A DNA stretch of 23,063 bases. Source: a virus. Of the stretch, positions 7,279-22,666 are shown piece after piece. A program made the position numbers and the translations under genes. A model generated the notes under the pieces. That model was given only the letters and a program-made list of their open reading frames with translations, had not been told where the DNA came from and did not search any database. Where the stretch lies: IMG/VR virus record IMGVR_UViG_3300033233_000170, positions 1 to 23,063 of that record; one strand, given 5' to 3'. How positions within the stretch are numbered: position 1 is the first letter of the stretch; every line of letters starts with the position of its first letter.

Positions 7279-7736
7279 AAACCTGCAAATTTACCAGCGG
7301 TAGATGTTGGTTTTGTTGCGTAGTTAGTGCTGCCGCCCATTCCAATCCTGTCCCCCAAGGTTGGTACGTTGGTTCCCTTAATACTCGCTTCTGTTCTTGG
7401 TGTGCGTCCACGAATTTGTGGTTCATCTACCAAGGCTTGCTGTTTAAACCTTCCAGCTGTTTTAGCTGCTGCTAAATATTTATTGACTTTAGATTCTTGC
7501 CTGTCATTACTAGTGCCTGCCCTAGAAGCGATTATTTTTTCCTCCGCGTTAAAATTTCTGGTATCCGTTGTGTATGCTCGCCCAGGATTTAAATCACTGG
7601 TGTCTCCACCGGAAGAACCAGCGTCTACCCTTGGATCGTAATTAGAAGGAATAGGAGTGGACTCCTGCCCTCTTCTTGGGTCGTAAAATCTTTCCATGAT
7701 AATATTGTAATCGAGGGAATTTAATGGCACTGCCAT
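7275..7736 (-). CDS. Hypothetical protein, 153 aa (or 140 aa from 7697)
   Basis: No family is recognised. From the internal Met14 the protein reads MERFYDPRRGQESTP and then NYDPRVD; after that it is low in hydrophobics and rich in Arg, Thr, Gly and Ser (DLNPGRAYTTDTRNF, KTAGRFKQQ, GDRIGMGGSTNYATKPTSTAGKFAGF). This composition is typical of small, partly disordered virion-associated proteins. Two starts are possible: ATG at 7736 overlaps the divergent gene's ATG, while ATG at 7697 leaves a 37-nt divergent spacer. Neither has a clear Shine-Dalgarno. Both ends abut plus-strand genes with no space, which is unusual. Confidence 0.68.
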   Translation of the reverse strand: MAVPLNSLDYNIIMERFYDPRRGQESTPIPSNYDPRVDAGSSGGDTSDLNPGRAYTTDTRNFNAEEKIIASRAGTSNDRQESKVNKYLAAAKTAGRFKQQALVDEPQIRGRTPRTEASIKGTNVPTLGDRIGMGGSTNYATKPTSTAGKFAGF

Positions 7737-7738
7737 GA
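7713..7738 (+). promoter_or_regulatory. Shine-Dalgarno and four-codon leader coupled to the 7735 gene
   Basis: GAGGG at 7713-7717 lies 6 nt before ATG 7724, which reads only ATG GCA CTG CCA TGA. The TGA (7736-7738) overlaps the next ATG (7735-7737). The good ribosome site thus serves a tiny leader, and the real gene would start by coupling. The alternative is that GAGGG acts at 17 nt distance. Confidence 0.35.
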
Positions 7739-8070
7739 TGCATGTTTATAAAAATGATTCAGAGCAATTAGAAGGGCGTCAAAACCCTGATGATTTTTTA
7801 ACAAAATTTATTACTTCCGACGATGAAGTAAGGCATCGTATGTTGTCGTGCTGCGATTTTGGTGCGCCTCTTGGTAATCAAGAAAATGATGTACCATTGT
7901 ATGATCACTACAACAGGGGGTTAGCTCTGTGTCAGGAAGACAAACCAAGGACAAATCTTTCCCTGGAGGGGACTCGCTCGGGACTGACTGGTTTTATCCC
8001 GTCGATGGAGGAAGCGCACAAGTACCCAGGGACGGTACCGATGGGCCGGAAACTCGTGACATCACTTTAG
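7735..8070 (+). CDS. Hypothetical protein, 111 aa, overlapping the DUF3310 gene
   Basis: The N-terminal 65 residues look like real protein: KNDSEQLEGRQNPDDFLTKF, TSDDEVRHRMLSCCDFGAPLG, and YDHYNRGLALC. The last 45 residues (from about 7929) share DNA with the DUF3310 gene in the -1 frame and look less natural. The gene may therefore be a true overlap, or its tail may be a by-product while the main function lies upstream. A ribosomal shift at AGG GGG (7915-7920) would join the two frames, since -1 is the right direction. No family is recognised. The double cysteine (residues 39-40) is not part of any motif I know. Confidence 0.6.
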   Translation: MMHVYKNDSEQLEGRQNPDDFLTKFITSDDEVRHRMLSCCDFGAPLGNQENDVPLYDHYNRGLALCQEDKPRTNLSLEGTRSGLTGFIPSMEEAHKYPGTVPMGRKLVTSL

Positions 8071-8686: not shown

Positions 8687-9337
8687 TCAAATCGGGTGTA
8701 AGACCTCTTCTGTTTGATCAATCCAATCCGCTTGCTTTATCTGGAACGTATTAGCAAATTCAGCCAATAGATAAGGATTGATTCCTTCTTCTAATTTTTT
8801 AATTGCTTGAATTTCATGTGGTGCAGCTGAGTAATTTCTAAAAGCAGCCAAAAGAATTTCACCAACTTGGCTGGTGCTTGGGTTGATATAGCTTAGGAAA
8901 AGACAAGACTCTTCCCTGCGGCGCTCCAAAAGATTACCTACCACTACACGGTCTTGGTCAAAGATCCAACATTTAATTTCTTCGGTAATACCGACCCAGT
9001 TTTGTTGTTCAACTTGATCAATAATAGAACTATAAAGGAAAGCTTTCCAACCTACAGAGTGAATAAAAGAAATCAATGCTTGACGCATGGAGTTGTCAAT
9101 ATGAAGATTCAATCCATCCAGGTCATCTTTAATACAGCTAATTTCATGTTGCAAGTATTCCAAGGCTTTTTCTTTGGTGCAGTACTGCCCATACTTGACG
9201 GGTGACCCATCGGGATAAAACTGAGTCCCATACCCCAAAGTGAACGGTGCACCTCCCGTTACCTGGTCTGGGTATGCGCTTTCATTAAAGCCTTCGTATT
9301 TACGAATAATATCTATTGCGTTTACAAAGTAAAACAT
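8687..9337 (-). CDS. T4-type lysozyme (GH24), 216 aa with C-terminal extension
   Basis: The GH24 catalytic triad is visible as Glu15 (RKYEGF), Asp24 (AYPD) and Thr33 (PFTLGYGT), followed by CTKEKALEYLQHE near 53-65, RQALISFIHSVGW near 84-96, and NLLERRREE near 134-142. These belong to muramidases that cut peptidoglycan between MurNAc and GlcNAc. T4 lysozyme is 164 residues; here about 55 extra C-terminal residues have no recognised domain and may bind the wall or a virion partner. There is no signal peptide or membrane anchor, so export would need a holin. It follows the 40-aa basic gene, with two competing stem-loops at its 5' end. Confidence 0.87.
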   Translation of the reverse strand: MFYFVNAIDIIRKYEGFNESAYPDQVTGGAPFTLGYGTQFYPDGSPVKYGQYCTKEKALEYLQHEISCIKDDLDGLNLHIDNSMRQALISFIHSVGWKAFLYSSIIDQVEQQNWVGITEEIKCWIFDQDRVVVGNLLERRREESCLFLSYINPSTSQVGEILLAAFRNYSAAPHEIQAIKKLEEGINPYLLAEFANTFQIKQADWIDQTEEVLHPI

Positions 9338-16921: not shown

Positions 16922-17608
16922 TTACCTTCCTCCAAGCATGTTGGGCACCGTAAGTGTTCCTAAAATTCCTTGAGGAAACATTTGTTGAATAATGTTGCTC
17001 CTAAATTGATCTACTAAGTTTTGCGCCAGGGTTCTAGGTTCTTCTTCTGGTTGCGTAACACTTTGCCCCAAAGCTCCTGCAAGAGTTGCGGCGACCCCTG
17101 GCAGTTGAGGATTTGGTGCAGTTGTTGCTGTTGTTGCTGTTGTTGTTAAATTGAATGGGTCACCAAGAACTCGTTGAGCATTGGCGTACAAATCCCCACC
17201 CTTTTTAAAACGTTTGGAGGCTGAGTTAACAGATGTACCAAAAGAATCTTTAGAGTTTAAAGATACGTTTGGGTTTCCGCCAAGTACTGTTGCATATGCC
17301 CTTTCAATACCCATGCCAGGTTTATACCCACGATCTTCAAAGTATTGAAGAACCTTTGGAATTTGACCAGCACGCGTTTGCGGCCCTTGTATTCCGTATT
17401 TTTGTTGTTCATTTTGCCCAAATTGAATTAAACCTTTGTGTCTTCCTCCTGCACCACCAACAATGTTAGGGTCCATGTTGACGCCTGATTCCAATGAAAG
17501 GAATCCGCCAAACTCATACGGATCAAGGCCTAATTTTTTTGCAGCATCAAAAATTGCCTGGCGTTCAGATGCAGGAAGGGTTCCAATACGAGCCTTGGGT
17601 GTAGCCAT
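16922..17608 (-). CDS. Lytic transglycosylase-like virion protein, 228 aa
   Basis: Residues 12-110 follow the lysozyme-like transglycosylase pattern: IFDAAKKLGLDPYEFGGFLSLESG (catalytic Glu40 in SLES), RHKGLIQFGQNEQQKYGI (56-73, the G-LIQ motif), YFEDRGYKPGMG and ERAYATVLGG (102-111). Such domains open peptidoglycan, and in virions they help DNA entry. Residues 152-175 are Thr/Ala/Pro-rich linker encoded by a run of GTT-like triplets (TTTATTATTAP). The C-terminal 50 residues have no known domain. An AGGAG is 17 nt before the ATG, too far to be a clear Shine-Dalgarno. It is probably a tail or internal virion enzyme. Confidence 0.76.
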   Translation of the reverse strand: MATPKARIGTLPASERQAIFDAAKKLGLDPYEFGGFLSLESGVNMDPNIVGGAGGRHKGLIQFGQNEQQKYGIQGPQTRAGQIPKVLQYFEDRGYKPGMGIERAYATVLGGNPNVSLNSKDSFGTSVNSASKRFKKGGDLYANAQRVLGDPFNLTTTATTATTAPNPQLPGVAATLAGALGQSVTQPEEEPRTLAQNLVDQFRSNIIQQMFPQGILGTLTVPNMLGGR

Positions 17609-18906: not shown

Positions 18907-19368
18907 TCAACGCCACATTTCATGCAGATAGATGCGAGTTCCAACGGAAACATCGGCTGGTCCAGGGAGTGCCTGGATGAATTCAGCGCCGGAGCGCTCA
19001 TAACGGTAACGCGCCTGGTACTCATCCTTGTAGTTAGGTACAAACAGAATACCGGCTAGACGATTCGTTTCGTATAGGTAGATCTGGTTCCAAACTTTCA
19101 ATGCTTCTGCGGCATTGCTAGAACGAATCGTACGATCAACGTCACCAATGATGCTTTCCAACCTGGTATTGGGATTGGAGGCAACCTCTGTTTTCTTTTC
19201 AGCCGTATCGCAACGACCAATTTGAATAACAATCTTGTCGTAGAAGTAAGAGTCAGGGACTGTATTCATTGCTTCTTCCAAGCGGGCATAGTCGCCTGCT
19301 GGCACAGAAACAGTAAAGTACCCTAAATGGTACCTGACCCTGCTTTTATCGAAGTCAGATAAATGCAC
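18907..19368 (-). CDS. Probable head-completion or connector-type structural protein, 153 aa
   Basis: The protein starts HLSDFDKSRVRYHLGYFTVSVPAGDYARLEEAMNTV, with VVIQIGRCDTAEKKTEVAS-like central sequence (actually KIVIQIGRCDTAEKK, about 45-59), then RLESIIGDVDRTIRSSNAAEALKVW and a C-terminus ending VGTRIYLHEMWR. The size, the SDFDKSRVRYHLGY opening and the position a few genes after the capsid gene recall small neck or head-completion proteins of tailed phages; this is inference. The start is GTG at 19368, since the frame closes upstream at 19382, and a TATAAT box sits 21 nt upstream. No Shine-Dalgarno is seen. Confidence 0.7.
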   Translation of the reverse strand: MHLSDFDKSRVRYHLGYFTVSVPAGDYARLEEAMNTVPDSYFYDKIVIQIGRCDTAEKKTEVASNPNTRLESIIGDVDRTIRSSNAAEALKVWNQIYLYETNRLAGILFVPNYKDEYQARYRYERSGAEFIQALPGPADVSVGTRIYLHEMWR

Positions 19369-19407: not shown

Positions 19408-20133
19408 TCAACCCCAGATAGCCTTTGTATATTCTTCTGGTAAACCAGTAGGTGTTCCCAAGCCGGCGCCAGGATTTAGCGCTTGGCTCAACATTGATTG
19501 AGTAACTTGCTCTCTCATTGTGTCAAGAAATGATTTTGGCTTTTTAGCTTCTTTGTATTGTGTGCCGTACATAAAAGCTTCAAGCAAGTCTTGGGTGCGT
19601 TGACTTGCCTGATCATAACCTTGTGGTGAACCAGGGAGTACCGGAGCACTGGGCGCGTTACCGGTCTCAGGAGCCGATGCAGCCCCTGGTAGTTTACTCA
19701 TATGAAACACATCTAACTTATACGGACCCGTACGTAAAGTAGAGATGTTTCCGGCTCGACCTACGTTTGCTAATCCTTGAACAGTCCCTCCGCCCATAAA
19801 ACGCAAGTCGGTGCCCTCGGGAAAATTGTAATCTTCTCCTTGGTGAGCAACATTCTTTGCTCCAGTTACTGGATGAACGGCACGCATGCCGATACCTTCA
19901 GTAAGAGAAAGCGCTGAGTTTAATTTAAATTGGCCACCAGCTTGGGGGCTGTACATCTGCTGCCACTCTTGGGTGCCAGGTAACCGAAATTGAATTTTTT
20001 GTCCCAGGTCTGCGCGGGCTTGTGATAATCCGTAACGCTTGCCGTTTTTAGTTACTTCAAAATGACCATGAGGACCAGTGACCCCACCAGTTGCACCGGT
20101 TTTTCCTTGGTAGATAGTAGATCCCGCAGACAT
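19408..20133 (-). CDS. M23-type metallopeptidase with circularly permuted motifs, 241 aa
   Basis: From ATG 20133 the protein has GATGGVTGPHGHFEVTKNG (13-31), which is the normally C-terminal end of an M23/LytM peptidase, with His22 and His24. Downstream comes GMRAVHPVTG (82-91), HQGEDYNFPEGTDLRFMG (97-114, His97 and Asp101), GNISTLRTG (128-136) and KLDVFHMSKLP (139-149, His144), the normally N-terminal and middle parts. All M23 zinc ligands (His, Asp, His) and catalytic His residues are present but in permuted order. M23 enzymes cut peptide crosslinks of peptidoglycan. Residues 150-241 are Pro/Gly-rich then helical. The upstream in-frame ATG at 20190 is rejected because it lies in a terminator hairpin. 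Confidence 0.78.
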   Translation of the reverse strand: MSAGSTIYQGKTGATGGVTGPHGHFEVTKNGKRYGLSQARADLGQKIQFRLPGTQEWQQMYSPQAGGQFKLNSALSLTEGIGMRAVHPVTGAKNVAHQGEDYNFPEGTDLRFMGGGTVQGLANVGRAGNISTLRTGPYKLDVFHMSKLPGAASAPETGNAPSAPVLPGSPQGYDQASQRTQDLLEAFMYGTQYKEAKKPKSFLDTMREQVTQSMLSQALNPGAGLGTPTGLPEEYTKAIWG

Positions 20134-20162: not shown

Positions 20163-20187
20163 AAAAAACCCCGCATTTTCTGCGGGG
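20163..20187 (-). terminator. Rho-independent terminator after the HhH gene
   Basis: On the minus strand CCCCGCA-GAAAA-TGCGGGG (20187-20169) is followed by six T. The stem is GC-rich and perfect, located 23 nt after the HhH stop and 36 nt before the M23-type ATG. It separates the capsid transcription unit from the following genes. Confidence 0.9.
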
Positions 20188-20209
20188 CATTAAGGAGATG
20201 AGTTAATAA

Positions 20210-20620
20210 TCAAACCCTGATTAAGTTGGCAGCCATAACAGAATCCCAATCAACCCGTGGAATTTTTTTTAACTGCTCAAGATTGTTGAATCTTTCACCT
20301 GATAATGACATCTGGAGATCTTTGATCTCGCGAGCAGTTTTTAATCCTACACCTTTGATGTGATCAGCGATCATTTGAGGTGTGGCGCTGTTGATATTCA
20401 AACGAGTTTCCGGGGGAAAAGCACGAGGTTCTTCTTGAGAAGCCTTGTCTTTTACTTGAAGTGTTTGGACTTTCTTGGTTGCAACCTCGTCAGGTGCTAA
20501 TTCGGTTTTGTAAGCAGTAAAAACACGACCGTCTTGGTCTTCGACCATTAACCAATCGCCGTTGTCAAACTCACTAATAACCTTGACACGAGCACCTGTT
20601 TTTTTGTGTTGATAAAGCAT
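20210..20620 (-). CDS. Helix-hairpin-helix protein (ComEA-like), 136 aa
   Basis: Residues about 1-45 (YQHKKTGARVKVISEFDNGDWLMVEDQDGRVF) look like a small SH3-like beta domain. Residues about 72-136 form a pair of helix-hairpin-helix motifs of the ComEA type: RLNINSATPQMIADHIKGVGLKTAREI and NNLEQLKKIPRVDWDSVMAANL. HhH motifs bind the DNA backbone without sequence specificity. Position after the capsid genes suggests a virion or packaging-related DNA-binding protein. A 9-bp stem-loop ends 1 nt before the ATG at 20620 and no Shine-Dalgarno is visible. The gene is followed by a strong terminator. Confidence 0.83.
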   Translation of the reverse strand: MLYQHKKTGARVKVISEFDNGDWLMVEDQDGRVFTAYKTELAPDEVATKKVQTLQVKDKASQEEPRAFPPETRLNINSATPQMIADHIKGVGLKTAREIKDLQMSLSGERFNNLEQLKKIPRVDWDSVMAANLIRV

Positions 20621-21505: not shown

Positions 21506-22666
21506 TCAGATGTTGCCGTCATCAGAAACGAAGCTGAATGCAGTGGTGACAAAATCTTTGTTCAAGATTTCAAAACCAGCATACAGTTGCCAGATCAAGA
21601 TGATAAAGCGGCTGAAGTCATCGTTGTTGTTGATGAGCACCTGGGCGTTGGGACCACCAATGCCAACGCCGATTGCCTGAGGACCAAAGAAGTAACCTTG
21701 GGCAATTTCTTGCTGAGCAAAAGTACTAGCGTTAAAGCTAGCGTTAATGGTGCGGTTGGGGAAGTTGGTCGATTCGAAGAACTTCACACCTTCAAACTGA
21801 ACGCCAGTAGGCATCACAGGTTCGCCAGCCAGGAAGTAACCTTGGCCTGCTTGGGGACCCATGTAGAAGCTGGAGTTGTTGGGCATCGCGGGGTTGCCCA
21901 TGTACATCCCTTGACCAGGGTTGCCAGCATAACGAGCGATCTCACGGAAGTCGGGGTCACGACGCAGGTGCATCATGAACGTGGGATCACAAATACAACG
22001 ATACAGACCATCGGAATAGGTCGGAACGTTGCGCTTACGCAGGTCCTTAACAATATTCAGCAAGTCGGTACGGACTTGGAACTGTTGTACATCAGCGGTG
22101 TACTCAGTGGTGGTGTAAGAAATAGAGCCGTTGGAGGCTTTGGTCTTACCACCGGGGAAATAGTAACCACCTTGGGTAGTAGAAGCTTGACCATTGGCTT
22201 CTGCTTTGGCAAGTTCGTCAATAAAGACGCGGTCACGCCACCGACGATAGTCATCCAGCAGGGTGAGGCTACCGATAGATTGGTGGAACATATTTAGGTT
22301 ACCGGTATCCAGCAGCAAGCGCTGGGCGGTAATCAGGGTTTCACGAGCAATCTTGAAAGTCGAAGGCTGAGTCGGATCGCCGGGGTCGGCAGGACCGGTG
22401 TATTCCTTAAGCACCACCAGGACTTTCTCCTTGGTGATGTTACGGCTGTTGGCACTACCAATGGTTTGATCGGCAATACGTTCGCGGCTGTCCTTAGTAC
22501 CAGGGGTTCCCCAGAACTTATAACGGTCTAGTTGAACGGTTTGGCCAGGTTGGCGAGTAAAGTCGTGGACGACCACGGGCTCTACTGCCATCTCAGCAAT
22601 GTAAGCAGGGTGGGGACGGTAGAGTTCCGCGCCCAAGATTTTTGGAAAATCGTTATCAATAAACAC
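21506..22666 (-). CDS. Major capsid protein, 386 aa
   Basis: The length and layout suit an HK97-fold capsid protein of the N4-gp56-like kind: an N-terminal arm with LYRPHPAYIAEMAVEPVV, then PGQTVQLDRYKFWG (like the G-TV-IP motif of that family), a central helix with LLDDYRRWRDRVFIDELAKAEA, a FQVRTDLLNIVKDLRKRNVPTY stretch, and a strand-rich C-terminal half with GYFLAGEPVMPTG and FEGVKFFESTNFP. The final part, FSRFIILIWQLYAGFEILNKDFVTTAFSFVSDDGNI, is a typical capsid A-domain end. Codons are more G/C-ending than in most neighbours, fitting high expression. Start is GTG at 22666 with GGAGG 10 nt before it. The family match is by pattern only; the role is well supported by context. Confidence 0.84.
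   Translation of the reverse strand: MFIDNDFPKILGAELYRPHPAYIAEMAVEPVVVHDFTRQPGQTVQLDRYKFWGTPGTKDSRERIADQTIGSANSRNITKEKVLVVLKEYTGPADPGDPTQPSTFKIARETLITAQRLLLDTGNLNMFHQSIGSLTLLDDYRRWRDRVFIDELAKAEANGQASTTQGGYYFPGGKTKASNGSISYTTTEYTADVQQFQVRTDLLNIVKDLRKRNVPTYSDGLYRCICDPTFMMHLRRDPDFREIARYAGNPGQGMYMGNPAMPNNSSFYMGPQAGQGYFLAGEPVMPTGVQFEGVKFFESTNFPNRTINASFNASTFAQQEIAQGYFFGPQAIGVGIGGPNAQVLINNNDDFSRFIILIWQLYAGFEILNKDFVTTAFSFVSDDGNI

Follow-up and report, generated by a model that had tools for sequence, protein, structure and literature searches.

The window, a stretch of 23,063 nucleotides (IMG/VR record IMGVR_UViG_3300033233_000170, positions 1 to 23,063), comes from a freshwater cyanophage and encodes a 241-residue protein (19408..20133, minus strand) in which the M23 peptidase domain is circularly permuted. 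M23 is a large family that is used in antibacterial enzyme work. Canonical members carry the segments HxxxD, His and HxH in this order, whereas the window protein carries HxH, HxxxD and the HLS-type His, and translation confirms the motif positions of the initial annotation, namely PHGHFEV (H22, H24), HQGED (H97, D101) and VFHMSKL (H144). Judged by its sequence and catalytic residues, the protein is an M23 homologue that differs in linear order. The same permuted domain is also found within tail proteins of unrelated phages, which suggests that viruses have re-cut the M23 enzyme fold and re-used it in permuted form.

Circular permutation of the M23 domain

The protein can be divided into four parts, all encoded on the minus strand. 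Residues 1-40 (GKTGATGGVTGPHGHFEV; 20014..20133) contain H22 and H24 and correspond to the canonical C-terminal third of M23. They are followed by a linker of about 26 residues (41-66; 19936..20013), which is absent from the canonical domain, remains unaligned to it, and connects the former C-terminus with the former N-terminus. Residues 67-155 (19669..19935) represent the canonical N-terminal two thirds with G82, R84, the HxxxD residues H97 and D101, and H144, while residues 156-241 together with the stop codon (19408..19668) form a low-confidence hinge and a helical C-terminal tail, which a tail profile also identifies in proteins with other N-terminal modules. Comparison with ShyA by phmmer recovers the two halves in reverse order, as query residues 68-148 match chain residues 238-318 and query residues 10-43 match chain residues 333-366.

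Sequence doubling is a standard test for circular permutation, and it was applied with an HMM built from 73 canonical M23 domains. The window domain scored 22.8 bits in its native form and 46.6 bits when doubled, with a single HMMER match that covers profile positions 8-118 and spans the seam. Other relatives with the HxH motif gained about 15-28 bits and the tape-measure domains about 8-10 bits, while the cyanophage relatives with HxD gained 0-14 bits, many of them showing no gain at this sensitivity. Doubling cost the canonical M23 controls about 2-5 bits, and 500 shuffled sequences reached at most 7.2 bits doubled and 8.6 bits native. At the level of the family alignment, hhalign matched the native form in two pieces, residues 67-155 to template columns 1-89 (99.3%) and residues 1-40 to columns 88-127 (97.9%), and the doubled form in one piece, residues 67-195 to columns 1-127 (99.9%, E 2e-31), the best of 30 column-shuffled controls being 12.6%. 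The breakpoint thus lies at template column 88/89, the entire 127-column domain is rebuilt with nothing missing, and the full-length profile match places the new termini after the HLS-type His and before the TG..TGPHxH segment. Together with the order and catalytic residues kept across contigs and in a phage isolate, these tests bear out the permutation that had initially been proposed from the motif order.

Pfam on its own detects no more than a single short stretch of the window protein, which might be taken to mean that two independent partial M23 pieces, either fragments or the product of an assembly or annotation artefact, lie side by side. We regard this as extremely improbable, because the window contains only one M23 match and the halves are complementary and abut at the breakpoint, which excludes two separate incomplete domains at the sequence level. 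Furthermore, the same order is found in the S-EIV1 isolate, in 68 distinct cyanophage-type sequences, in dozens of independent contigs, in tape measure proteins of Acinetobacter and Moraxella phages and in Acinetobacter genomes, and an assembly artefact is therefore rejected. The Pfam match itself pairs only residues 10-33 with positions 70-93 of PF01551, and it falls below the gathering cut-off (22 versus 28.7 bits, E 2e-4) because the profile is linear and covers one half. One relative (L033) passes the cut-off with 33.8 bits in two stretches, and at E 0.01 PF01551 detects 21 of the 46 family members. Since linear profile searches largely miss the permuted form, permuted M23 domains are probably under-annotated in virion proteins.

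The start of the gene is supported by homologues among L002-L013, L016-L097 and L277-L301, which begin at the equivalent ATG. Just upstream lies a terminator-like hairpin (GCCCCGCAGAAAATGCGGGG) followed by a T run (20168..20188, minus strand), identified by consensus match only, in a region with five such sites against 3.1 expected. An in-frame ATG at 20190, 5' of the assigned start, sits inside this hairpin, and a start there, or a start-codon artefact, was ruled out, as the first codon in the relatives corresponds to 20133. By eye, NRGFF/NQGFCC-like upstream codons are present in several relatives, of which the same hairpin may be the cause. No N-terminal signal peptide was evident on inspection of the protein.

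Catalytic residues and predicted structure

In an alignment of 46 sequences with identities down to 23%, H22, G82, R84, H97, D101, G116, G128, Y138 and H144 are invariant; those among them that are polar belong mostly to the active site. The zinc-binding HxxxD motif is thereby present as H97 and D101 and the third catalytic His as H144, which aligns to the His of the HLS segment, while the HxH motif of the window protein consists of H22 and H24. In M23 peptidases zinc is bound by the His and Asp of HxxxD and by the second His of HxH, and the remaining two histidines activate water (PMC9662197); by correspondence, H97, D101 and H24 occupy the ligand positions and H22 and H144 the water-activating positions. 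The initial annotation had stated that every ligand is kept while the order is rotated, of which the rotation stands and the count needs correction: five catalytic residues are kept, and only three of them are ligands.

AlphaFold, run with the 46-sequence alignment, predicts residues 1-155, including the linker, as one strand-rich domain with pLDDT of about 95, and a weak, helical tail from residue 160 on. Predicted strands carry the HxH motif (22-29) and the HxxxD motif (93-97 and 100-102), and H144 follows strand 138-143. When this model was compared with known structures by VIA, a sequential aligner, ShyA came first with a weak match (Z 5.0, 92 aligned residues, rmsd 3.5, 21% identity), tied with unrelated chains such as a lectin at 4.9. 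Foldseek gave no match in the PDB at E<=0.001, which is expected as a sequential aligner faces a permuted fold, and a search of BFVD returned one match (A0A510E7V3, E 8.7e-5).

The position of H24 is the one at which the family divides. The second His of HxH is replaced by Asp in the S-EIV1 branch, as in GAHLDVRV, and in the tape-measure branch, and this HxD form is fixed at the zinc-ligand position in L054-L091, L161, L162 and L167-L174. With this replacement, zinc binding may be altered or lost in some HxD members.

It could be argued that the permuted domain has lost catalysis and serves as a structural or binding module, as do the degenerate M23 proteins of the EnvC/NlpD type (PMC9662197), and both the HxD branch, which lacks one zinc-ligand His, and the L014-type module, which occupies the same gene slot and keeps few of the residues, could be read in this way. 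This is nevertheless unlikely, given that all five catalytic residues are present in the window protein, that 39 distinct HxH sequences share the order HxH, HxxxD, His, that the invariant polar residues are mostly those of the active site, and that Asp is also able to bind zinc. The window protein is best described as a putatively active enzyme.

Distribution and the common C-terminal tail

Scans of IMG/VR combined with a scripted motif count identified the permuted order in 39 distinct HxH and 29 distinct HxD sequences of the cyanophage type. It is also present in an isolate, Synechococcus phage S-EIV1, whose protein AHV82231.1 is 35% identical to the window protein and is annotated as 'peptidase M23 family'. 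With the S-EIV1 protein and the relative L045 as tblastn queries, Acinetobacter phage tape measure proteins were matched over both halves without reordering, L045 residues 3-105 giving a single-piece match at E 1e-10. In the Acinetobacter and Moraxella tape measure proteins the motifs follow one another as, for example, TGPHLDVRY, SFHKGIDF and LKLLHQ. One Moraxella query matched 30 phage records at a coverage of at least 80%, and eight Acinetobacter genomes contain the permuted domain in long ORFs. Matches in genome contigs outside Acinetobacter were mostly ordinary canonical M23 domains, which were used as controls, and when 274 gammaproteobacterial genomes were searched with a profile at E 1e-12, the tape-measure version appeared in none but the Acinetobacter genome that had served as centre. 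After a weak S-TIM5 structure match, the S-TIM5 genome was searched with a profile as well, without any match. In addition, the 125-kb record IMGVR_UViG_3300042503_000838 contains a second M23 match besides its permuted M23 (bases 7679-7903, profile positions 10-77), which lies within a 930-residue frame.

In a tree of the rotated permuted domains and canonical domains, the canonical sequences, a limited sample, lie together to one side of a single branch (76/93; 72% of the bootstrap trees), which allows the permutation to have arisen once without proving it. It is conceivable, although we would lean slightly against it, that the permuted domains constitute a distinct subfamily of single origin that has spread among cyanophages and gammaproteobacterial phages, in which termini brought together in one loop would let the enzyme be inserted into tape measure proteins or be fitted with a docking tail, and of which one branch would have shifted to a His-Asp-Asp zinc site.

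The C-terminal tail is not confined to proteins with the permuted domain. The L014 protein has a tail that is 93% identical to residues 171-241 of the window protein, placed behind a different N-terminus, and in relatives the gene slot holds this common tail behind several kinds of N-terminal part: an M15-like module, an SGNH-like segment fused ahead of the permuted domain, and the L014 type. The last of these is seen in L014 (3761-4531) and in L099-L150 (A4). It has no match in Pfam, NCBIfam or PHROG and no significant match among PDB sequences, and its profile reaches at best 30% probability against canonical M23, while every chain that VIA returned for its model had Z under 4, and many of these chains were ferredoxin-like. 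It does contain an invariant H24-x-D26, D100 and H158, and is predicted to have a strand order similar to that of permuted M23; the L014-type module may thus represent a third, highly divergent branch of the permuted domain. By eye, L092 (3427-4116), L094 and L095 (4626-5315) have the same tail behind an M15/VanY-like module of the form H...D ... HxH (GYHPVGMAIDVRD ... HDTHVHLAL), for which no significant profile match was obtained, and they suggest an exchange of different peptidoglycan hydrolases at this gene position. In L012 (5524-6693) an SGNH/GDSL-like segment (FGDSIAVGYGG ... HPK; PF00657, E 0.034) is fused in frame upstream of the permuted M23 domain.

A second variable slot is located in the structural cluster, at 16922-17608 on the minus strand of the window, at 17158-17817 in L015 (S-EIV1) and at 8425-9153 in L009. 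The N-terminal parts encoded there differ between relatives and appear, by eye, SLT-like, tail-lysozyme-like or SleB-like. The S-EIV1 protein, which has the tail-lysozyme look, ends in a tail that weakly resembles the one of the permuted M23 protein (a small search gave E 0.002).

Proposed role and relation to known systems

The permuted M23 gene lies near the major capsid protein gene (21506..22666, minus strand; phrog_1357, E 2.7e-16). Its immediate neighbours, both on the minus strand and both conserved in relatives, encode a helix-hairpin-helix protein upstream (20210..20620) and a phrog_29158 protein downstream (18907..19368; E 9.8e-74). A separate phage lysozyme, which is likely the endolysin, is encoded at 8687..9337 on the minus strand (PF00959, 64.3 bits), and S-EIV1 has a separate lysozyme gene as well. 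The proximity to the capsid gene, the separate lysozyme and the swappable N-terminal modules on a common tail favour a virion-associated peptidoglycan peptidase. Many M23 proteins of phages carry an endolysin annotation, and the annotation of the S-EIV1 protein, which names only the family, would fit an endolysin-type lysis protein; this assignment is nonetheless quite improbable here, since the lysozyme genes of the window and of S-EIV1 argue against it, as do the position near the major capsid gene and the relatives of the domain that are parts of tape measure proteins.

The permuted protein is thus likely to be a zinc peptidoglycan endopeptidase that is docked by its tail to the virion and cuts the cyanobacterial wall at genome entry, rather than the main endolysin. 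According to this model, the old termini would be joined by the linker, the new termini would lie in the loop that connects the strand of the HLS-type His to the TG..TGPHxH strand, and H97, D101, H24, H22 and H144 would come together as in LytM. Zinc would be held by H97, D101 and H24, and water would be activated by H22 and H144, following the M23 mechanism (PMC9662197), while R84 may stabilise the oxyanion, as its invariance and the Arg proposed for EnpA suggest. The substrate is expected to be a peptide bond of peptidoglycan. Docking to the virion is probably mediated by the helical C-terminal tail, and peptide links of the cyanobacterial wall would be cut from there during genome entry, with the main endolysin role residing elsewhere. 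The initial suggestion that the permuted form could suit insertion into the virion is supported by its occurrence in tape measure proteins. The family also provides natural material for examining if permutation favours the incorporation of an enzyme into a tail protein, and what a His-to-Asp change does in a zinc site.

To our knowledge, catalytic metallopeptidase domains that are circularly permuted in nature and yet retain every active-site residue are uncommon, and no description of a circularly permuted M23 was found in the open-access literature. Among cell-wall peptidases, the LRAT-like and YaeF/G6R branches of the NlpC/P60 superfamily have a naturally permuted catalytic domain (PMC6403190); their papain-like cysteine fold, however, is unrelated to the zinc M23 fold. 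Permutations have also been described among barrel-sandwich-hybrid (HABAS) domains, where an M23 protein was superposed, although not as permuted within M23 (PMC11515920). The canonical M23 family (PF01551; LytM, lysostaphin, ShyA/MepM, phi29 gp13) shares with the permuted protein the HxxxD, HLS-type His and HxH segments and an FGxR-like signature before HxxxD, and the doubled permuted sequence covers its whole domain; the differences are the rotated order, the linker, the new termini after the HLS-type His and, in one branch, the change of H24 to Asp. S-EIV1 AHV82231.1 agrees with the window protein in permuted order, gene slot and C-terminal tail, and differs in GAHLDVRV, where Asp replaces the second His of HxH. 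Finally, the tape measure proteins of Acinetobacter phages (Vieuvirus and others) and of Moraxella Mcat phages possess the permuted domain with HLD, HxxxD and LLH, but there it is of the HxD type, has a shorter linker and lies in the middle of a tail protein of roughly 1,300-1,700 residues.
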